Positions 3,901 through 33,056 of a stretch of DNA of 64,000 bases are shown in pieces. A model generated the notes under the pieces. That model was not told where the DNA came from. It worked only from the letters and a program-made list of their open reading frames with translations, and made no database searches. The DNA comes from Bacteroidota bacterium (GTDB lineage: Bacteria; Bacteroidota; Bacteroidia; B-17B0; Aurantibacillaceae). The DNA is taken from positions 1 to 64,000 of the forward strand of contig CANFTW010000001.1 of the NCBI GenBank assembly GCA_947450025.1, given 5' to 3'. The position numbers and the translations under genes are program-made. Numbering within the stretch: position 1 is the first letter of the stretch; every line of letters begins with the position of its first letter.

Positions 3901-5468
3901 ATATAGAAAATTCTTTAGATTTAGAGGGGCCTGAATTCATTTCAGTTCATCCAAAACAAGATTCACTTCGCTTCCTAGCACCTGCAGCCAAATATAATCT
4001 TAGAAAATGTATTATTAATTGTATCAATGTTCCATTTATCAATGTTGCCGATGCGCGTCTTTTTCCTGATTCAGGTAAGGTTGTTGTTTATAAAAATGCC
4101 GTGATGGATACGCTTAAAAATTCTGTAATTTTAGCAAATACCGTAACAAAATATCATACAATTAGAAATGTTACGGCAAATATTTTTGGAAGAAAAAATT
4201 ATTTAGCTACTGGAGAATACCAATATCTTGATGAAAACAATAAACCCTATCTGATTAAATTTAACACGATCAAACCTGATACATCTGGACAAACTGTATC
4301 TTCAGGTTTAATTTCCGAAAACTCAAAATTTCAGTTTAATGACTATTTCAGTTTTGCTGGTAATGTCTATCTCTTTTCTAATAATAAATTTCTAACTTAT
4401 GAAGGAGGTACAAAAATTGTTCACTCATGCGGAAAAATCGGAAAAGCATACTTGAAATTCAACGGCGAAATTGATCCAAAAGAAATTTTAATTCCCTTAC
4501 CTGCCAATACAACTGATGTAAATGGCAAACCTGTAGGATCTGCAATTATTTATGGCCAAGATACAAATATGGTATACTCTTCCTTTGTTTCATTAAGAGG
4601 AGGAAAAAAAGATGTAGATGTAATAAGTGCTGATGGTTATCTTGGATATGATAAAGAATCAAAAGAATATAGGATTACAAATAAAGAAAAATTTATTGAA
4701 CAATCTTTACCAGGAAATTACATTAGCTTAAATACTGAAAATTGTAAGGTTTATGCTGAAGGAAAAATGGACCTTGGTGCAGATTTAGGACAAGTAAAAT
4801 TCAATAGTTTTGGTATCGCTACTCACAGCACAATCAATGATTCTGCAACTTTTGATTTTATGTCTACAATCGACTTCTTTTTTGATAAAGGAGCTTTAAA
4901 GAAAATGGTAAAAGATATTGAAGTGTATTACAATACATTGCCAGCGATTGATTTCAGTAACAGTGTATTTAATAAAGGCATTACAGAAATATTAGGAAAA
5001 GAAATAGGCGATAAAGCTATTTCTGATTTAAACCTAAATGGCTCTATTAAAAAGTTCCCTGATGAGTTTGAAAAAACATTTATGATTACAAATACTCAAT
5101 TACGATATGACAAAACTAGCCGTTCTTTTCTATCTGTTGGACCAATTGGATTAGGCGCCATAAATAAAAATGAGATGTACAAACAAATTCCTGGATACAT
5201 TCAACTACAAAGAAAAAAAGGGGGAGATAACTTTACACTATACTTTGAATTAGATGCTAAGACCTGGTATTATTTCTACTATTTTAAAGGAGTTATGAGT
5301 GTTGTCAGTAGTAACGCTGATTTTAACAATACCATTAAAGAATTAAAATCTAAAGATAAAAAACAAGAAGTTAAAAGTGGACCAGGATTTCAGTTTACAC
5401 TATGCAGTCCAACAAAACGTGATGTCTTTTTAAGAAAAATGAAACAAGTTAATGCCTCGGAGGACTAA
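999..5468 (+). CDS. Giant exported beta-rich protein of unknown function
   Basis: I do not recognise a named domain, but the style is that of a very large exported protein family found in Bacteroidota. The frame is open from 942, but I choose the ATG at 999. It places a normal signal peptide (MTIKKGFLLTVFVLTINAVHGQ, given here as its two parts MTIKKGFLLTVF and VLTINAVHGQ) at the N-terminus, with cleavage after the Q. The mature protein of about 1,465 residues starts with a short helical part. A long series of beta-strand segments with alternating polar and hydrophobic residues follows, many of the form xFxGxxxxxxFxFxGKDF. Some resemble the LptA/AsmA-type beta-taco layers, which is only an impression. 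It has no transmembrane helix after the signal and no T9SS sorting domain. It is a single-gene unit ending in a strong terminator. Confidence 0.75.
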   Translation: MTIKKGFLLTVFVLTINAVHGQKLTHFSSDSIKFFKELNEYFYEFSANKKDAEVYMQGFQQIWKSPDFSSKYRQAVYKTCNAMLERRLKPYPNFISYLNAVVNFIDSRQNPEVFDNWQLCIEKIFKSKNLKNYSEYLEMSENIFSENIFYKSPTYSYKSTETNYKFEFDSIPKVIFPNFTLVGTSPRGDSITIENIQGTYYPSWGRFVGKGGRLSWKRTGVGNDVYADLTRVNLDCKTGGYTSDSATFVGKQYFDIPQKGKVTDKIVTEKDNPTYPRFDSYSKRLVVKNIYPDVDYDGGFGMRGNKFVGSGNSKNPAKLLFKRNNARFLEISAQSFSMTKEKINAKPASVKFYLEKDSIIHPGLSFVYQVDKKTVTLLRTDDGLEKSPYFNTFHKVDMYFEQLVWKTDEPKVEFNFLPNNTQGEAFFESQDFFSKERLEAIKGQEAISPVQKINDYYNNNGNVITFTTVELAKYIKYLAVDLRPMIFKMANFGLLYYEPETDLITIRPRLFDYIKNLKHEKDYDILTIHSVFPNRNNATLSLINNSYDLTIRGVENILLSDTQKVFIFPKHNELILKKNRTIEFSGTVASGKFEFHGKDFLFDYDMFKLKMKTIDSCRIYVVSAEPDINGNYPFKRVQTVIENLNGELRIDAPKNHSGYGKAPTFPQFQSFKESYTFYDKKTIFKGVYNRNKFYYKLDPFTMDSLDNFRNEGLVFEGEFSSAGIFPTFREQLKLQKDYSLGFIRNTPPGGFQVYDGKAKFENEIRLSNKGLRADGDLNYITSTTKSKDFIFFPDSMNTKASSFDIKEQINPIEFPQVHGDTVYVHWIPYKDILNATDKASPFKTFNNTCTFKGKYSLSPQELHGNGTVDMVKADIVAINILFKQHQFFSDTANFHLKAIGEGGLSFASDNVNTKMDLEKRIGEFVANGKATIVRFPKNQYIAYMERFKWFMDSEEIQLGDENKKLDSNIENSLDLEGPEFISVHPKQDSLRFLAPAAKYNLRKCIINCINVPFINVADARLFPDSGKVVVYKNAVMDTLKNSVILANTVTKYHTIRNVTANIFGRKNYLATGEYQYLDENNKPYLIKFNTIKPDTSGQTVSSGLISENSKFQFNDYFSFAGNVYLFSNNKFLTYEGGTKIVHSCGKIGKAYLKFNGEIDPKEILIPLPANTTDVNGKPVGSAIIYGQDTNMVYSSFVSLRGGKKDVDVISADGYLGYDKESKEYRITNKEKFIEQSLPGNYISLNTENCKVYAEGKMDLGADLGQVKFNSFGIATHSTINDSATFDFMSTIDFFFDKGALKKMVKDIEVYYNTLPAIDFSNSVFNKGITEILGKEIGDKAISDLNLNGSIKKFPDEFEKTFMITNTQLRYDKTSRSFLSVGPIGLGAINKNEMYKQIPGYIQLQRKKGGDNFTLYFELDAKTWYYFYYFKGVMSVVSSNADFNNTIKELKSKDKKQEVKSGPGFQFTLCSPTKRDVFLRKMKQVNASED

Positions 5469-5538: not shown

Positions 5539-7218
5539 CTAATTAATTGCTACTGACATAGTTTTTGGAGCCTTAATTTGGTAAACTAATGATAATTTTT
5601 TATTGTCTTTAGCTTGTATAATAGAGCGCCATTTTACGATGCCTGTTATTTCATCATATTTAGCTCCTGATAATTCTTTTCGCTCAATTGTTATTGTATT
5701 ATCTTGGGTTAAAGGCAATTGATCCTCTACCTCTATTTCTACTTTTGAATTTCTAGAGTTTTTAATTGTAATTTCAAAAGTATATTGATGAAGAATGTCA
5801 TTTTCTAAAATTTTTTGAGAACATTTATCTTTAATTTTTTGACGTTTAATGGCAATATTTTTATCAATTCCTAAAGATAATTGCATCGTATCTTCTGTCC
5901 CTCCAGGCACTAAATTTGTTTCGCCTATATAGGAGCCATCATAATAAATAGATGCTTCACCTCCCATTGTAATCGCATCTTCCCAATCTGGCAAGACAGC
6001 AGTTAAATATACATTGTTATTCAACTTTGGAATGGCCTTGTATCGATAAATTGTTTTTAAATCTTTTACCATAATAGCGGCAAAATGTTCTTTACCATCA
6101 CTTGGGATATTATAATTTAACTTTATCTCATATTCTGTTTCAATCACATTTTCACTTACTGTATTATAATCGTATGCATTTTGAGCTTTCACAGCATCTT
6201 GTTCCATGGTTATACTTGAATAGCCCTGTTGATTTTTTTCAAGATAGGATGATTTATTTACACTAGGAACGGCTAGAGAATTATCTTTTAATTTTTTATA
6301 GTTATAATTTGTATATCCTAAATACCAAGGAGATAATTCAGGTAATTCATACGATCGATTAGGGTTTGCTGTAGATAGTACTAACTTTACACTTCCCCAG
6401 TCTGAGCCTGATTGCTGGTGTATTTGAGCTTTGTAAGTTAACTTTACATTTTGTTCGTTTGAAATTGCTCTCAAATCATAGGAAGGCGTCCACCCAGCAT
6501 TGGTTATATAATAATTTAAATTAACAGAAGCTTGTATTGCTTGATCAGCGATAACATGTACCAAAATTCGATAATCCACTTTTTCAATTTCACCTGTATT
6601 ATCAATATTAGCAAGTTCATTACTGACATTGACTAATCTTTCATTTAATATTATTTTTTTTTGATCAATTTTTTCTCTCTCTCGTTTTAGCTTTAATTGC
6701 TCCGTATTAATATTAAATAATTTCTCTCTTAAATAAGATAGCCCTTCTTTTAAAGAAGCAATACTATCTCTTTTTGAAATACCTTTATACAAACTATAAT
6801 TTAATAACACATTTTTTTCAGTTGACAATGCATCATATTTTGAATTAATATCCTCAATTAAATAATTTAATTCTAACAAGCTATCGTTAACATTCTTTAA
6901 TAATTTTTTATAACGAACATCTCCGTTTAATTTAACCTTTGCTAATTCAGGGTAGTGAATTTCATGTTGGATATCGGCAATAATAAAATTACCATTACCT
7001 GAAGCCTGAATAGCCGATGAATTTATACAATTCTCTAAACCTATAAAGATTAATGTGTTTTGTCCTGCTATTAGATTAACCAATGCATTACGATGCACTT
7101 GAGCGCCTTGTGTATATACAATGATTTTTTCAGGTTTAGATTTAACTATTTTTTCTGTTTCAGAAGCATTTGCCTTGAATGTAGCAATACAAAATGCAAG
7201 TATTATTAATTGTTTCAT
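5539..7218 (-). CDS. MuiA-like DUF4140/DUF4139 exported protein
   Basis: The 559-residue protein has a short signal peptide (MKQLIILAFCIATFKANA). An N-terminal DUF4140 domain follows (about 28-125, with VYTQGAQVHR and LIFIGLENCI), then a coiled-coil stretch rich in E/K/L (about 105-205) and a long DUF4139 domain (about 215-555, with NAGWTPSYDLRA and LVLSTANPNRS). This is the layout of proteins annotated 'mucoidy inhibitor MuiA family', whose biochemical role is not established. It is probably periplasmic or outer-membrane associated. It is transcribed in the same direction as recR, 89 bases away, and ends at the shared terminator at 5479-5514. Confidence 0.88.
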   Translation of the reverse strand: MKQLIILAFCIATFKANASETEKIVKSKPEKIIVYTQGAQVHRNALVNLIAGQNTLIFIGLENCINSSAIQASGNGNFIIADIQHEIHYPELAKVKLNGDVRYKKLLKNVNDSLLELNYLIEDINSKYDALSTEKNVLLNYSLYKGISKRDSIASLKEGLSYLREKLFNINTEQLKLKREREKIDQKKIILNERLVNVSNELANIDNTGEIEKVDYRILVHVIADQAIQASVNLNYYITNAGWTPSYDLRAISNEQNVKLTYKAQIHQQSGSDWGSVKLVLSTANPNRSYELPELSPWYLGYTNYNYKKLKDNSLAVPSVNKSSYLEKNQQGYSSITMEQDAVKAQNAYDYNTVSENVIETEYEIKLNYNIPSDGKEHFAAIMVKDLKTIYRYKAIPKLNNNVYLTAVLPDWEDAITMGGEASIYYDGSYIGETNLVPGGTEDTMQLSLGIDKNIAIKRQKIKDKCSQKILENDILHQYTFEITIKNSRNSKVEIEVEDQLPLTQDNTITIERKELSGAKYDEITGIVKWRSIIQAKDNKKLSLVYQIKAPKTMSVAIN

Positions 7219-26711: not shown

Positions 26712-27056
26712 TTAATGCTTTGTTTTTGATATGCCGTATAAAAGCAAAAGTAAAAAAATTATTAAACTGCCATTAACTAGCACATAAGTTGGCAAAATAA
26801 AATTGGTGATTGCGAAGATTATTTGACTACTTAAATACAAAAGAAAAAATACTGCCGCTGCAGTCCTTGTTAAAGTTGTTGTTCTGTCGTAATCAAAGGA
26901 AATTGAAAAGGCTGAAGCGCTGGATAAAAAAAGCCCTATAAAACAACCAATGCCAAGGATTAGTTTGTTACTATCAACTTGATAACTCGATAAAAAGTAA
27001 CTAATAATAACTGCTAATAGTAAAGATAGAATTAAGGTAAATTTATTTATTTTCAT
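26712..27056 (-). CDS. Small multi-pass membrane protein, unknown
   Basis: The 114 residues are almost entirely hydrophobic, with about four transmembrane segments (near 7-25, 33-50, 66-85 and 90-108) and a basic tail ISKTKH. I recognise no family. It is the last gene of the leftward SPFH/GYF operon, 3 bases downstream of the preceding gene, so it probably acts with it at the membrane. Confidence 0.65.
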   Translation of the reverse strand: MKINKFTLILSLLLAVIISYFLSSYQVDSNKLILGIGCFIGLFLSSASAFSISFDYDRTTTLTRTAAAVFFLLYLSSQIIFAITNFILPTYVLVNGSLIIFLLLLLYGISKTKH

Positions 27057-27059
27057 TTT

Positions 27060-27482
27060 TTATTTTTTAAAGATTGTTTCCCATGCATTTTCATCTAAAT
27101 ACACTCTGCACGTGTCATTGATTAAAGCGCATTCTATTTTAAATGTATCATTTGTTCCTAGTATCGTGCGTTGATACGTTAATGACCAACTAGTTTTGTT
27201 TTTTACTTTGACGCCAACTCGTTTTAATGAATAACCAAAATTAGCATTAGTTAATCTTTCTAATAGTTTACTTTTAATATTTACAGATGAACCATAAAAG
27301 AAAGGTAACATTTTTTCGTACTGCTGATTTTTGTGTACTGCCTGTAAATAACTTAAAATGTCGGTATTGTAAAAGCATAAAGGATTTTTATACAAACAAT
27401 TATTTTTCTCTTGCGAGTAGTTAACTTTATTCAGGCACAAAGTAAACAAGCAAATAATAAATATTTTAATAATACGCGTCAT
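27060..27482 (-). CDS. Small exported protein of unknown function
   Basis: The 140-residue protein has a signal peptide (cleavage near VNYSQ). The secreted part has four cysteines (NNCLYKNPLCFY, then ECALINDTC) that could form disulphides, and a predicted alpha+beta fold. I do not recognise it. Its ATG overlaps the stop of the GYF-like gene by one base (TAATG), so the two are probably translationally coupled. Confidence 0.65.
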   Translation of the reverse strand: MTRIIKIFIICLFTLCLNKVNYSQEKNNCLYKNPLCFYNTDILSYLQAVHKNQQYEKMLPFFYGSSVNIKSKLLERLTNANFGYSLKRVGVKVKNKTSWSLTYQRTILGTNDTFKIECALINDTCRVYLDENAWETIFKK

Positions 27483-27832
27483 TATTTAATTGGTGGTGGC
27501 ACCAAAGCAAATAACTTATTTACATCCATAACTTGTTCAGCTGGCATCCAACTTGGCATCCCTTGAAGCCAAACCATAGTCGTTTTTTGTACTCTACCAG
27601 CTACTATATGTCCAGTTAATTCACTTTCAGTAAAAGGACCTTGAGGCATTTCATTTACTAATGCATAAAATTGTTTTGCAGTAGGAACAGGCACATTTAC
27701 ATTTTTAAATTGTGATATTTGCATCTGACTCATAGCATGATTCATGGTCTGCATCATTTGCTGAGCTACTGACATGCTCATTCCAAACTCCATCATTCTT
27801 TCTATTGAATTAAAATTGTTGTCGTCGCTCAT
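27482..27832 (-). CDS. GYF_2 (DUF4339) domain protein
   Basis: An N-terminal helical part, Met/Gln-rich (about 1-45), is followed by one GYF_2-type domain (about 50-110): YALVNEMPQGPFTESELTGH, then TMVWLQGMPSWMPAEQV. This domain resembles the C-terminal domain of the neighbouring SPFH protein, suggesting binding of a shared partner. GYF-type domains usually bind proline-rich peptides, and the Pro-rich ends of this protein (VPPPIK) and of its neighbour are candidate ligands. No signal peptide. 24 bases downstream of the SPFH gene. Confidence 0.8.
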   Translation of the reverse strand: MSDDNNFNSIERMMEFGMSMSVAQQMMQTMNHAMSQMQISQFKNVNVPVPTAKQFYALVNEMPQGPFTESELTGHIVAGRVQKTTMVWLQGMPSWMPAEQVMDVNKLFALVPPPIK

Positions 27833-27856: not shown

Positions 27857-29269
27857 TTACGGCATCGGTGGAGGCGGAGGCATTGCATTAAAAAGACTTT
27901 GTAATTCGATTACCTTACCAGCCTCTAACCAATTTGGCATACCTTGTTTCCAAACATACGTATTGGTTACTAATTGCCCACTCATAACCATTTGTTGTAA
28001 TTGTTGCGTATTAAACGGACCTGTTTGTTGACCATTTACCGATAATAAATATTGTATAACTGGAGGTGGTGGAGGTGTTTGATTATTAGGTGTTGCTTGC
28101 GGATTCATAGTGTTGCCCATTTGATTCATCATGCCTGCCATTTGGTTGCCCATGGCTCCGCCCATCATCATACCTGTCATCATGCCCGCAGGGTTCATCC
28201 CGCCACCAGAACCGCCGCCAAGGTTCATAGTCCCCATTTCTCCAAGACTGTCAGCCGCTGCTGTTAAAATTGTTTTTTGAGCGTCTGTTTGAATTTTTAA
28301 CTTTAATAAATCAAGGTTATTTGTTTCTGTTTGTAAACTTTGTGCTTTTTCATATTGTTCCCTTTGAATACGTAATTGTTCTTCCATATTCTCAGTATTT
28401 ATTCTCTGAGTATCCTTTAGATTTTTAATATTGGTTTCTGCCTGAGCCTTAAACGTATCAATTTCTACTTCAATTTGTACGTTTTGTGTCTTCAATCGTT
28501 TTTCAATAATATCAGTTGTTAACTCTTTTAATTTAAAAAACTTCTCATCTTCATTTATTCTAATAGAATCTACATTTATCATATTTGTTGTTAAACCAAA
28601 TACGTTTTCGATTTCACTTTTCAACCTATTGTCTAATTCTATATTTAATGAGTCTAACTGCGATTCAATAGCAATAGCTGGAATATTATTTTGTTTCGGC
28701 AAATTTGCGGTAAGTGCTTTTATATTTCTCTCAATAAACGGCCTCAATTTAGTTTTAACTTCATTTATTTCTAAATTCTGTAATCTATGGATTTTAATAA
28801 AATTTTGATAGTCAGATATTTTAGTTAAAATTTGATAATCAACAGAACATTCAATAGGAAATCTGCTTAAGTTTATGTCAAAGTCATAAATATTAAAAAA
28901 TGGTACTGTAGCATTAAACTCTATAACTTGAGATAAGTTTATAAAATATATTTCAGCTTGAAATGGGGAACCTCCGCCATAAGCTGCACCTAAGATACTT
29001 GACAGGATCGGTAAATTAGCAGTTTCTAACATCTTATCAAATGGACCCATTATAAACTCCTGCATTACACCGTCTTTTTGTTTATAAAGAAAAACAGCAA
29101 CCTCGCCATCCTTAACACGAAGACTGCTTTTCCATCTAATAGCATTTTCTTTACTTGTTGAGTTTACTTCATTTCCTTCAGGCCTCCATTTCCATATTAG
29201 AAAATCTTTTTCATCACAACGGATTATATCCATCATGCTACCTTCTTTTTTATTGCTAAAAAGTCCCAT
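27857..29269 (-). CDS. SPFH-domain protein with C-terminal GYF_2 domain (YdjI-like)
   Basis: Residues about 20-240 form the SPFH/band-7-like domain of the 'virion core protein' (YdjI) type: IIRCDEKDFLIWKWRPEG, SLRVKDGEVAVFLYKQKDG, FIMGPFDKMLETANLP. A long coiled coil (about 240-335) is followed by a Gly/Met-rich linker (about 345-395), a run of five prolines, and a GYF_2 domain (about 405-460) ending PPPPPMP. Bacillus YdjI works with PspA and membrane partners YdjG/YdjH in envelope stress; here a zinc-ribbon membrane gene is directly upstream but no pspA is visible. It probably assembles at the inner membrane. Confidence 0.87.
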   Translation of the reverse strand: MGLFSNKKEGSMMDIIRCDEKDFLIWKWRPEGNEVNSTSKENAIRWKSSLRVKDGEVAVFLYKQKDGVMQEFIMGPFDKMLETANLPILSSILGAAYGGGSPFQAEIYFINLSQVIEFNATVPFFNIYDFDINLSRFPIECSVDYQILTKISDYQNFIKIHRLQNLEINEVKTKLRPFIERNIKALTANLPKQNNIPAIAIESQLDSLNIELDNRLKSEIENVFGLTTNMINVDSIRINEDEKFFKLKELTTDIIEKRLKTQNVQIEVEIDTFKAQAETNIKNLKDTQRINTENMEEQLRIQREQYEKAQSLQTETNNLDLLKLKIQTDAQKTILTAAADSLGEMGTMNLGGGSGGGMNPAGMMTGMMMGGAMGNQMAGMMNQMGNTMNPQATPNNQTPPPPPVIQYLLSVNGQQTGPFNTQQLQQMVMSGQLVTNTYVWKQGMPNWLEAGKVIELQSLFNAMPPPPPMP

Positions 29270-29277
29270 AAATGTTA

Positions 29278-30537
29278 TTATTTACATTTTTCATTTATTA
29301 AATTATATGCGTCTAACCACACTGTCTTCAATTCTACAATTTGATTTGAACTTAATTTATTAAATTCTTTACATCCCTCGTTTTTCAATCCAGAGTCAAA
29401 CATTACAGAAATTTTCCAAATATGCCTTTCTAAGTCTAAGGGCAAATTTTTTGGATACTTTTTAAGATATAAATTAATATCATTCAGTGAGTTTATATAA
29501 TCCTTTTTATCGTAGTAAATAGCAGATCTATATGGTAAATATATATAACCAAATTTCTTATCTAAAGAAATTGCTTTAGAAATAAACTTTAAACTTGAAT
29601 CCTTATTATCAACTACCTGATGTAAACGAAAATAAATAGGGCTAAAAGTTGGATTTAAAACCAATGCTGTGTCTAAGTACAATTTTGCATTTATTATATC
29701 GCTATTTAAAATACAATCACTTGCTTTTGCATAAAAATAAAACTCAGAAATATCCCTCTTTAAATCCCATTTATTCCATTCATTATTTAAACTGTCTTTT
29801 ATAATAGCGTTAGTAAACATGTTGCATAATCTGCTTCGGAAATACAACTTGTTAAAATTTGTAAGATCAATTAAATATTCGTTCGATGATTTATATAAAA
29901 GATAATTATCTAAGTATGCCCTATTTACATTTTCAACAAATTTTTCTGCGACGTTTTTCTTTGTAATTCTTTTATAAACAATAAATGAAATAATAGAAAT
30001 TGAAACAATCAATATAATGACTCTTACAAACTTTCTTTTTTTAGATTTGTTTACTATCTCATTAATGTATTTATCAGAGATAGCTTCCAATTCAGATAAT
30101 AATTTTTTTATTTCATTGTTATCTGAATATCTAGTTTTAATAAATCTAATTTCTTTTTCAACACGAGCAATTAAACTTTCAATAACTTCTTTGGAAGTCG
30201 AGCTACTCAATCCTCTAACTTGAACAATAAGATTTTCGAGAGTTTCAATAGCTGCCTCTAGTGATTTAGACTCTTGAATTGATCCAGTGTTAAAAACATA
30301 ACCACAAGAACATGTTTTAGCAAGGCCACTAATTCTTTTTCCACAAGATGGGCATTTAATTTGTGATGCAACGGTCTCTTTTTCTTTTAAATGCTTTTTA
30401 GCCTCTATAATTATTTCAATCTCATCTTGATTTATACCAAAATCAGATGCTTTTTTAATAATTACATTTCGTTCTTTTTCTGTGATTTGACCATCTGCTA
30501 AAGCGAGCTCGATTAGTTTTTCAATTTCTGGATGCAT
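29278..30537 (-). CDS. TerB-like / zinc-ribbon single-pass membrane protein with TPR-like region
   Basis: Residues 1-50 resemble a short TerB-type helical domain (LIELALADGQITEKERNVII). A zinc ribbon follows with Cys62, Cys65, Cys76 and Cys78 (CPSCG then CSCG), then a coiled coil (about 85-165). One transmembrane helix (about 171-188) leads to a C-terminal region of about 230 residues with TPR-like helices (LNPTFSPIYFRLHQV; YDKKDYINSLNDINLYLKKY). The layout zinc ribbon plus one helix is like YdjG, the partner of the SPFH protein YdjI. Start and upstream stop overlap (TAATG), implying coupling. Confidence 0.7.
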   Translation of the reverse strand: MHPEIEKLIELALADGQITEKERNVIIKKASDFGINQDEIEIIIEAKKHLKEKETVASQIKCPSCGKRISGLAKTCSCGYVFNTGSIQESKSLEAAIETLENLIVQVRGLSSSTSKEVIESLIARVEKEIRFIKTRYSDNNEIKKLLSELEAISDKYINEIVNKSKKRKFVRVIILIVSISIISFIVYKRITKKNVAEKFVENVNRAYLDNYLLYKSSNEYLIDLTNFNKLYFRSRLCNMFTNAIIKDSLNNEWNKWDLKRDISEFYFYAKASDCILNSDIINAKLYLDTALVLNPTFSPIYFRLHQVVDNKDSSLKFISKAISLDKKFGYIYLPYRSAIYYDKKDYINSLNDINLYLKKYPKNLPLDLERHIWKISVMFDSGLKNEGCKEFNKLSSNQIVELKTVWLDAYNLINEKCK

Positions 30538-31154
30538 TAGTTAGTTTTTGAAATTTCAATTAAAAATAAACGGACTTGATGTCCTATATTTTTCCTATCC
30601 AAACTATTATTATGAGATATAGTATATGAAGATATTAATTGCTGCTTAAATCCTCTTTTTAGTTTTAGTGGTGAAGATTTGGTTTTATGATCTAAATAAT
30701 CAGACAATTCTTTGTTTTTCGTTTTGGTACGTTGCAACGTTTTTTCTCGAGCAGCAATAACCATAAAAGCTCTTTTTTCTGAACTACTCTTTTCGATAAA
30801 AAGACTTTCTAAATTGCTGATATCATTATTAATTCCATCGATATTAATATATTCGTGTGTCTTAATAAATGACTTTATCTCAAACCAATAATTAAATGTT
30901 TTCTTCTCATTTTCAATTGATATATCAACTTTATTTTTCTCCTTCTTTATTTTACATCCTTTATTTTTTAATTGTTCTTTTAACGAAACAAATAATAAAT
31001 ACTGAATATCGTATTCACTTAAATCATCTTCATTAGATATATAAGCACTATTAATATCAAAATAAGTTTTATTTATAATATTTCTTAGTGTAGATTTTGT
31101 TAATATGTTTTCGTTGTTATTCATATTTAATTTTTGAAAATTATACTTGACCAT
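30537..31154 (-). CDS. Hypothetical protein with possible PD-(D/E)XK core
   Basis: The 205-residue soluble protein is not one I recognise. Residues 75-98 contain KVDISIE, then YWFEIKSF: an acidic residue (Asp77), a strand, and E-I-K (Glu92, Lys94). This spacing fits the core of PD-(D/E)XK nucleases, and a following LESLFIEK helix also fits. It may equally be a catalytically dead relative or chance. The start could be the ATG at 31154 or the one at 31124 (residue 11). It is coupled to the downstream gene by a one-base overlap. Confidence 0.55.
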   Translation of the reverse strand: MVKYNFQKLNMNNNENILTKSTLRNIINKTYFDINSAYISNEDDLSEYDIQYLLFVSLKEQLKNKGCKIKKEKNKVDISIENEKKTFNYWFEIKSFIKTHEYINIDGINNDISNLESLFIEKSSSEKRAFMVIAAREKTLQRTKTKNKELSDYLDHKTKSSPLKLKRGFKQQLISSYTISHNNSLDRKNIGHQVRLFLIEISKTN

Positions 31155-31224: not shown

Positions 31225-31455
31225 CTACTCTTTTTTATCTGAAATATGCATAGATTTATAATATCCAAAACCAACAAAAAATAATGCAACTATTGCCCCT
31301 AAAACATAAGCAGTTGTTTTATAATAGCTAATGGGATGAAATATAAATTTTTTTCTGTCTTGTCCTTGCATATAATCAGGCAAAAGCAATGATGATATCG
31401 CAAATACAACAATAAACACAATTAAATAAAAACCAAAAACTTTCAATTTCTTCAT
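31225..31455 (-). CDS. Small two-helix membrane protein
   Basis: The 76 residues have two transmembrane helices (about 6-26 and 48-66) separated by a basic, aromatic loop (QGQDRKKFIFHPISYYKT). No family recognised. It is the first gene of the leftward accessory operon; a conserved triple-half-site element lies about 120-150 bases upstream (31574-31608). Confidence 0.6.
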   Translation of the reverse strand: MKKLKVFGFYLIVFIVVFAISSLLLPDYMQGQDRKKFIFHPISYYKTTAYVLGAIVALFFVGFGYYKSMHISDKKE

Positions 31456-31573
31456 ATTTCTTAAATTTTTTTTCTTCTCTACTCTAAATGGCTTTTCGAG
31501 TTCCGCCTAATTTTCTTTTAGAAAAATTATATACAAAAAAAACGTTAAAATATCTGAAAGTCAATTGGTAATG

Positions 31574-31608
31574 GTTTCATAATAGGTTTCACAGGGCAAT
31601 GAAACCAA
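31574..31608. promoter_or_regulatory. Candidate operator upstream of the SPFH operon
   Basis: The site reads GTTTCA-N6-GTTTCAC-N5-AATGAAACCAA, with half-sites starting at 31574, 31586 and 31598: exact 12-base steps, the last one inverted. The same arrangement occurs at 33022-33056. It lies 119 bases upstream of the first gene of the leftward operon. A weak -33/-7 pair (TTG at 31562-31564, TTTTTTTG at 31534-31541) lies downstream of it. Confidence 0.6.
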
Positions 31609-31645
31609 TAAAAAGAAGAAAAGAAGATGAAAATGTAGGATTGAT

Positions 31646-32947
31646 TTACAATTTAGTATTGTAAAAGTTTTCTAAAATAGATCGGTTTATTAAATACATA
31701 AATCGTCGTTTGTCTATTTCGGCTTTGTTGCGTGTAATCATTCCTTTAGGAAAATCTTTTAAAATTCGGTGGCGACGAAGCTTTCGGCTATCACCTTCAA
31801 GGTGTGAGATGTTTAAAATCTTATCCATTTCGTCCCAATTGATTTCCGAAACGTTCAAGTCAATAAATAGTTGTGCAATGCGCTTCAACTCTTTATGGTC
31901 GGTGTGCGATTCAACTTTTGCTTGTATAGGCTGTAAAATCAGTTCTTCTGGCTCCTCAACTACTTCTATTATATTACTTACATTTTGTTTTTTTCGATTT
32001 AAGTATACAAAAGCACCTGCTATGATAGCACCTATTAAAACTATAATGATACAAATAGTGGTAAAAAATGTGCTGGTAATGCTTGGTTCTTCATGTTTCC
32101 AAACAATGTCTTTTGCTTTATTGGAATTTGCTTTCCAGATGTTATCAAAATCTAACACCACATTGCTTGAACGAATCTCATTAAAACGATTAAAGGCACA
32201 TTTATTTCTATCTATGAATTTTAATTTACTTACAATTCCAATGCCGTAATCTTCGTTGCTAATCAACATAAATTTATTCAACTGAGGTGAAATTACCATA
32301 GTCTTTAGGTCTTTCAATAACACTACATAGTCTTGTGTGTATATAAATTGGGGCTTCGGAAAAAAAGTGTGATGTTCCATGTTAGTTATTACGCGCTGCC
32401 AGCACATTGTTTTTAAATCAAGACGGTAGTCATTTGCATCCAACGAATCGGGCTCCACATTATTACCCGATTTAAAATTATTGAACGAATAAACATAATT
32501 ACCTTGCTTATACGCAGGGCCTAAAATAAATGGAGGAACATCTCCTTTAGTTTTTACAAAGCACCATTCCTTTAATCTTAAATTAAAATATTTTAAATTA
32601 TTATTGGTTGTAAAATGTCCATATCCGCCTAAAGCATATAAGTTATGATTATAGGTAAACAAAAATCTGTGGTTATCGCTACCGTGAAACAGCGAATGAT
32701 CTAATCGTTCAAGTGTATCAGCTTTTAAACGAAATACATAATGAAACCCATGAGGGTTAAATAAGGTGTCGCCATCTAAATATTGAAAATTAGCAGCTCC
32801 TAAATGCAACATATAACTTTGCGCATGAGCGTCGCCAAATTGAGCAGCAATGGTATTTCTAATGGCTATTTCTTGTTTTTTAGAAAGTATTTGCGAAAAA
32901 ATAGTGTGCGATAATAAGAGTAAAAAAGTAAAAGTAAGTTTTAGCAT
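31646..32947 (-). CDS. Kelch-like membrane-spanning protein, possible sensor/regulator
   Basis: A signal peptide (cleavage near IFSQI) leads to an exported domain (about 20-290) with Kelch/beta-propeller features, e.g. HNLYALGGYGHF, NNLKYFNLRLKEW and YRLDLKTMCWQRV. One transmembrane helix spans about 292-316. The cytoplasmic tail of about 115 residues starts acidic and ends in a basic helical region (SRKLRRHRILKDFP; NKAEIDKRRFMYLINRS) that could be a winged-helix DNA-binding domain; that is inference. Identical-architecture sites lie upstream of this gene and of the next operon. Flanking genes differ from the surrounding housekeeping set. Confidence 0.6.
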   Translation of the reverse strand: MLKLTFTFLLLLSHTIFSQILSKKQEIAIRNTIAAQFGDAHAQSYMLHLGAANFQYLDGDTLFNPHGFHYVFRLKADTLERLDHSLFHGSDNHRFLFTYNHNLYALGGYGHFTTNNNLKYFNLRLKEWCFVKTKGDVPPFILGPAYKQGNYVYSFNNFKSGNNVEPDSLDANDYRLDLKTMCWQRVITNMEHHTFFPKPQFIYTQDYVVLLKDLKTMVISPQLNKFMLISNEDYGIGIVSKLKFIDRNKCAFNRFNEIRSSNVVLDFDNIWKANSNKAKDIVWKHEEPSITSTFFTTICIIIVLIGAIIAGAFVYLNRKKQNVSNIIEVVEEPEELILQPIQAKVESHTDHKELKRIAQLFIDLNVSEINWDEMDKILNISHLEGDSRKLRRHRILKDFPKGMITRNKAEIDKRRFMYLINRSILENFYNTKL

Positions 32948-33021
32948 CTTAGTTTAAATTTAGACAGATAATTTGTTGGTTGCAAAAAAAAGAAATAAAA
33001 CCAAACTTAGTCCATTTTTTA

Positions 33022-33056
33022 GTTTCAAAGTTGGTTTCACGAGTGAATGAAACCAA
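33022..33056. promoter_or_regulatory. Candidate operator upstream of the Kelch-like gene
   Basis: Three half-sites start at 33022, 33034 and 33046 with the same 12-base steps and orientation as at 31574-31608. Around the inverted pair the palindrome extends to 11 bp (AGTTGGTTTCA with its complement, 33029-33058). It lies 75 bases upstream of the start at 32947. A TAAGTTTG box on the minus strand at 33002-33009 could be the -7 element. Confidence 0.6.

Follow-up and report, generated by a model that had tools for sequence, protein, structure and literature searches.

A Kelch-like membrane protein of Bacteroidota as the probable activator of its own gene and of adjacent cargo through operators of three half-sites

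In a 64,000-nucleotide stretch of Bacteroidota DNA (hereafter the window), the gene for a Kelch-like membrane protein and a seven-gene SPFH/GYF operon are each preceded by a copy of the same three-part element, which raises the question of what binds the two copies and whether the Kelch-like protein could regulate both units. Our answer is that this protein is probably a one-component, membrane-anchored activator of its own gene and of the adjacent cargo, acting via triad operators. All window features described here lie on the minus strand. Operator 1 (31573..31608), 5′ of the seven-gene operon, reads GGTTTC-N10-GAAACC-N6-GAAACC on the gene strand (18/18 letters), and operator 2 (33021..33056), 5′ of the regulator gene, reads GGTTTC-N10-GAAACC-N6-GAAACT (17/18 letters). 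The original prediction had placed two 35-base sites here, and its coordinates proved right, with zero mismatches and identical spacing. Its distances of 75 bases to the Kelch-like gene and 119 to the operon, the latter measured to the 76-aa ORF at 31225-31455, were also correct (from the operator ends as defined here, 73 bases to the regulator start codon and 117 to that ORF), and the CAAAAAAAA tracts that it described near both sites are present. Its half-site steps had all been given as 12 bases; this holds for the direct pair, whereas the inverted pair, counted as GGTTTC/GAAACC words, has a step of 16.

Allowing up to three mismatches, the 35-base pattern, which was defined after both sites had been seen, matched these two sites alone, both in the window (0 matches in 100 shuffles) and in the whole genome (3,207,305 bases, 28 contigs; 0 in the reversed control), and the expectation that the sites would be confined to these two units was thus borne out. 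The genome contains one more exact palindrome, at C9:40903, which was discarded because it appears by our own reading to be coding and is without a third half-site. The two operator copies have 27 of 34 letters in common, their spacer letters being different, and when the downstream region was shuffled 60 times, one shuffle reached this similarity; the window contains five direct pairs this similar within 3 kb, the operator pair included. By bare similarity the pair is unexceptional and is modest evidence, and for this reason we consulted relatives, since it is the comparative results that lift the pair above chance.

Homologues of the regulator were found in 11 of 150 genomes and, by profile, in 25 of 395 with the window's own genome counted; two or three copies each occur in this genome (G000), G002 and G004. 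Named records gave 17 homologue loci, several of them being the same genes, and the closest homologue (L112, from the window's genus) is 68% identical. GGTTTC or GAAACC words flank many close homologues, 5′ of the gene and again after it, before the next gene. To put numbers on this, we scored triads of 18 letters in 8 geometries on both strands at 19 loci; L124, with a broken reading frame, was excluded here and also from the alignments, the upstream/downstream similarity test and the de novo repeat score. Scores of at least 14 were reached upstream at 10/19 loci and downstream at 11/18, a level attained by 21 of 1356 control tiles. For L113, the upstream score belongs to a site on the other strand. 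Both sides reached this score at 9 of the 18 loci testable on two sides, a count that includes the window, which had itself supplied part of the pattern. The four top control tiles (score 16) correspond by position to three further sites, two at L114 and one at L118, each of them 5′ of a gene with a signal-like start by our own reading.

The two-sided test failed at 10 of the 19 loci, which counts against the activator reading. L113 and L118 passed on one side, L115 fell just under on one side, and the sites of L114 lie farther out; no such word occurs near the gene at L119, L123 or L128, and L126 has no upstream site and a downstream part that is too short. L121 (3090-3125) and L122 (2100-2130) have, after the Kelch gene, only GATAC(C) words in 11-base steps, possibly a changed half-site specificity. 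The loci without a recognisable triad may represent either changed specificities or absences. Near the distant homologues the triad is absent, two of them having a lone word. Conservation of sites beside homologues, which had originally been named as support, is found at many close homologues, but not at all of them. Two further scores were set aside. A position-free upstream/downstream similarity was too blunt: the values of L019, L022, L115, L116 and L114 were reached in 0/60 shuffles (that of L114 being due to an unrelated inverted repeat), that of the window in 1/60, those of L112 and L125 in 6/60 and those of the remaining loci in more. The second, a de novo repeat score, picked out 10 regions at step 11, of which some were A/T-rich stretches and no sites, and 0, 4, 0 and 1 regions at steps 9, 10, 12 and 13.

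The arrangement of the half-sites was compared between paralogues and along the gene tree. The C8 paralogue has direct triads, GAAACC-N5-GAAACC-N5-GAAACC, before the gene (C8:40584) and after it (C8:42039). When direct and inverted triads were searched in 14 genomes each with up to two mismatches, the direct triad was confined in G000 to both flanks of the C8 paralogue, the inverted 16/12 triad occurred there only at C1:31573 and C1:33021, and the direct triad of G004 was found only at its C77 Kelch gene. Nine congeners without a detected homologue gave two-mismatch matches only, one of nine in the direct and two of nine in the inverted search, like the reversed controls. Strays with two mismatches came from G012 in the direct search and from G004, G005, G015 and G016 in the inverted one; those of the inverted search that are distant from Kelch genes, two in G004 and one in G015, were counted against an activator.

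Supported groups of the tree retain the inverted or the direct arrangement. The window and L112 have inverted 16 plus direct 12, L117, L120, L125 and L127 (L022 more weakly) have inverted 16 plus direct 11 or 12, the group of L019, L116 and L115 has direct 11-base steps, and L118 and L114 have direct 11. L113, sister of window and L112, has by our own reading GTTTCA-N7-TGAAAC and a third half-site before the gene. L114 groups weakly with the window in the tree, yet its sites are direct and not inverted, a further point against an activator. At L115, the Kelch and LamG genes are each preceded by an array (4700-4760, 6259-6330) in which ACC recurs about six or seven times at a step of 11 bases; we read these arrays as longer and degenerate, with drifting outer letters.

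A different, unlinked regulator could bind these sites, with the Kelch protein a mere cargo whose tail has another role, and this would agree with the several homologue loci that have no recognisable sites. We consider it unlikely, because the Kelch gene is the constant element beside varying cargo, the arrangement largely tracks the Kelch-gene tree and two paralogues of one genome have private arrangements. Moreover, the nine congeners without a detected homologue have no such pairs, and in the window operon Pfam recognises no DNA-binding regulator above its cut-off.

The sites also keep a fixed distance to a candidate core promoter element. In the window, TTTG stands at 32983..32986, where its offset relative to the operator 2 end is 34 and where it is part of the CAAAAAAAA tract, and at 31534..31537, with an offset of 35 relative to the operator 1 end. 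Among 20 regions, 12 have TTTG 34 or 35 bases past the proximal half-site (7 of 12 sequence clusters), and 0 of 2000 random shifts had as many TTTG at any offset pair. The anchor words of this test had been chosen by hand, so it was repeated position-blind. A scan of 217,364 bases gave 14 sites with at least 16/18 letters. In 12 of them TTTG follows downstream at 34/35, and in the other two at 25, closer by roughly one helical turn. With at least 15 letters the count is 13 of 17, and the four exceptions comprise L112:3157, operator 2 read in reverse and the two sites with TTTG at 25. In the three sites found later by sequence alone, TTTG is at 35 in all. The site L113:4736 (15/18, opposite strand) has TTTG at 35 inside TAATTTTG and may serve an oppositely running gene.

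The octamer TAnnTTTG is present at 6 of the 14 sites (two of L114, and L117, L120, L125 and L127). According to PMC6847099 it is the −7 promoter consensus of the phylum, with a stricter form that bars G at two positions; L120 and one L114 site break this stricter form, and the window octamer TTTTTTTG bears only a partial likeness to TAnnTTTG, which we counted against an activator. With TTTG at −8 to −5, the end of the operator would fall near −44, a typical position for bound activators. The fixed distance, the fixed strand and the place just upstream of the core promoter favour an activator touching the polymerase.

In a less probable reading the same protein represses. The regulator would then bind both sites and, by looping or blocking, keep the two promoters off until the propeller binds its signal. 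MarR proteins mostly repress, on palindromes, and the tail fold is nearest to MarR; two sites 1448 bases apart could loop. We regard repression as an outcome to be reckoned with but less probable than activation, given that some 35 bases separate the sites from the TTTG downstream, which they do not cover, and that distance and orientation are fixed, as expected of activators. That the inverted arms form RNA hairpins in a leader or terminator instead of protein sites is hardly credible: GGTTTCA-N8-TGAAACC could pair, but at the paralogue and at several homologues the repeats are all direct and so unable to pair with each other, and they stand at the same TTTG distances.

Behind operator 1, the window operon comprises gene 1 (31225..31455, 76 aa, two hydrophobic stretches by our own reading), gene 2 (30537..31154, 205 aa, no family above cut-off), gene 3 (29278..30537, 419 aa, TerB-like and zinc-ribbon matches under the cut-off), gene 4 (27857..29269, 470 aa, SPFH (Band_7_1) and GYF_2), gene 5 (27482..27832, 116 aa, GYF_2), gene 6 (27060..27482, 140 aa, a signal-like start by our own reading) and gene 7 (26712..27056, 114 aa, hydrophobic by our own reading). 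Other loci carry different cargo behind the downstream operator: LamG plus T9SS-sorted proteins at L112, L115 and L019, and in the second gene of L120, and unclassified small proteins at L116, L117, L125 and L127. L128, which has no operator, has a GYF match just under the cut-off. Between window and L112, the operator, the T-rich promoter and the leader agree up to GAGTAGAG and then diverge, which looks like cargo exchange directly after the leader. The SPFH/GYF operon, originally proposed as the partner of the Kelch-like gene, is a partner here but not a fixed one, since at L112 another gene follows a similar operator and leader.

An exchange of this kind could also come from recombination or element-end sites, the same-oriented copies serving to move the regulator cassette or its cargo. 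The copies do flank the gene on both sides, and window and L112 have different genes after a leader and operator that are kept (window 31460-31608, L112 6243-6450; 82% agreement over 45 bases after the site); nevertheless we consider this very unlikely, as the spacers of the copies and the arrangements of the paralogues differ, the sites keep a fixed spacing to a promoter-like element, and a recombinase is absent among the 20 cargo proteins scanned. As separate observations, repeated intergenic units of 50-124 bases follow the Kelch gene at L010/L113; an imperfect inverted repeat (GGCTTAATAAAAATGGAC...) flanks the Kelch gene of L114 at about 4846 and 6560, possibly a small inserted element; and the cargo protein at L116 4343-4885 has a weak Pycsar TIR-like match (E 0.0027, under the cut-off), a protein with a similar start being present at L128.

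The operon leader contains a DUF805b-like RNA (31476..31509), which at 26.4 bits falls short of the gathering score of 35.6 bits of the DUF805b RNA family (RF02914) and so is not reported there. At L013, L014, L015 and L021, the sister family RF03081 scores above its own threshold in the same place as the window leader. DUF805/DUF805b motifs also occur at L116 and L128, and there are several per genome in the genus, G004 having 11 RF03081 matches at E ≤ 0.01. The RNA is present in 7 of 14 genomes of the genus, mostly without the operator, and RNA leader and operator thus look like separate control layers. The idea that the DUF805 RNA is the cause of the sites was rejected, since 4 of 51 rows (12 genus genomes) have a word within 250 bases upstream, three of them at Kelch loci (L054, L060, L066) and the fourth a lone word at L092. 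The 51 rows are 30/30 fetched RF03081 loci and 21/30 fetched RF02914 loci, with some RNAs in both lists; the omitted RF02914 loci are L093, L101, L102 and L104, which are at Kelch loci, L094, L106 and L107, which scored weakly, and L109 and L111.

The regulator gene (31646..32947) encodes 433 aa with a hydrophobic N-terminal helix, which we read as an export signal, a Kelch-like propeller, one membrane helix and a winged-helix tail. Residues 287-319 form the single hydrophobic segment above threshold. AlphaFold2 modelled the whole protein with pLDDT 80 and pTM 0.60, residues 322-348 being below 50. The 50 matches listed for the propeller model are all Kelch domains (LZTR1, Keap1, KLHDC2 and others) or designed SAKe6 proteins, which we take to be propellers, with E from 5.3e-8 to 9.3e-7 and probability 1.00 at a TM by query of just 0.26-0.33. 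The structure search therefore assigns a propeller fold, and at the sequence level the Kelch repeats stay under the Pfam cut-off (29 bits vs 50, 16 vs 25.3).

The tail (codons 351-433, 31649..31897), in the order H-s-H-H-s-wing-s-H, was modelled alone with pLDDT 85, and eight residues are invariant across the 15 aligned tails, the window included. A winged helix was what the original prediction proposed to look for, and this is what the model gives, with MarR/SarA-type regulators as the best structural matches. In Foldseek the best E is 2.1e-3, with no match under 0.001, and the first 25 matches, described as regulators, are presumably of the MarR/SarA type; VIA-align ranks SarS (Z 8.0) and MepR (Z 7.5) best, values that may reflect a common arrangement. 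Pfam finds no family in the window tail, and its MarR models match 3/15 tails at E ≤ 0.1 (best 0.014); a tail profile searched against PDB sequences gave nothing firm (best E 0.013). Residues 351-433 hold 18 K+R and 12 D+E; taken as a whole, the cytoplasmic part has almost no net charge (21 K+R, 19 D+E), which counts against a DNA-binding activator. A tail search across the phylum matched 6 of 395 genomes, the window's own and G210 among them, and the other four matches (L146-L149) seemingly have Kelch-like ectodomains too, by our own reading. A defence-library scan returned two weak matches.

Taken with the sites beside homologues, the winged-helix model supports the proposal that the protein regulates its own gene and the operon. 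From computed sites, their co-occurrence with the gene, the clade-wise arrangement, the fixed TTTG distance and the predicted fold, we infer binding, signal, sign of regulation and membrane topology as follows. The propeller would sense a ligand or partner in the periplasm, the single helix would span the inner membrane, and the cytoplasmic C-terminal MarR/SarA-like winged helix would bind three GAAACC half-sites about one helical turn apart. With the operator ending directly upstream of the core promoter, at about −44 if TTTG is the −7 element, the bound regulator would recruit RNA polymerase to two promoters. At its own promoter this would amount to positive feedback; the second promoter drives the neighbouring cargo operon, and transcripts from it would begin with the DUF805b-like RNA leader. 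Paralogues in one genome could be kept apart via a different arrangement of the same half-site. Several cargos are exported and lectin-like, and on these grounds our guess for the signal is a cell-surface or periplasmic glycan or protein.

Whether these proteins make up an undescribed Bacteroidota sensor-regulator class, combining a propeller, a membrane helix and a MarR-like tail with interchangeable cargo and with paralogue specificity set by half-site arrangement and not by letters, is a more tentative matter, on which we lean slightly towards doubt. Paralogue insulation would there come from inverted-plus-direct versus direct 11-base steps. If right, the phylum would have a further membrane-anchored regulator design beside SusR and the hybrid two-component systems, with operators readable from DNA alone. 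The sensor and its promoter would form a compact pair, specificity through the arrangement of half-sites could be put to the test, and some operons with a DUF805-type RNA leader would be under transcriptional control as well. In the open-access literature searched, judged by titles and abstract openings, no paper described such a Kelch/winged-helix protein class or the RNA.

The closest known systems share parts of this design. The predicted fold of the tail is most like that of MarR/SarA winged-helix proteins, which are soluble, whereas the regulator is predicted to be membrane-anchored. Unlike the hybrid two-component systems described in PMC3243724 and PMC3878776, the regulator gave no match to Reg_prop, YYY, histidine kinase, receiver or AraC domains in a Pfam scan at E ≤ 1. 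SusR and SusR-like proteins of Bacteroides (PMC3878776) are membrane proteins with a periplasmic sensor and a C-terminal cytoplasmic DNA-binding domain, activate two operons and belong to a regulator type described as unique to the phylum; our protein resembles them, by prediction, in being a membrane protein with a periplasmic sensor and a C-terminal DNA-binding domain. For SusR, the predicted motifs consist of a pair of direct-repeat sites far apart, with a long spacer (PMC3878776), in contrast to the three half-sites in 11-, 12- or 16-base steps found here; in addition, the sensor is here a Kelch-like propeller and the cargo not a Sus system. With ToxR/CadC (PMC5936718) the protein shares, again by prediction, a bitopic one-component design with a periplasmic sensor and an intracellular winged helix. 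The DNA-binding domain of the ToxR family is N-terminal, however, so that the order is reversed here, propeller first and winged helix last, and the fold search ranks MarR/SarA first. Given this reversed order and an operator type unlike that of SusR, we file the regulator as a variant of membrane-anchored one-component regulators.
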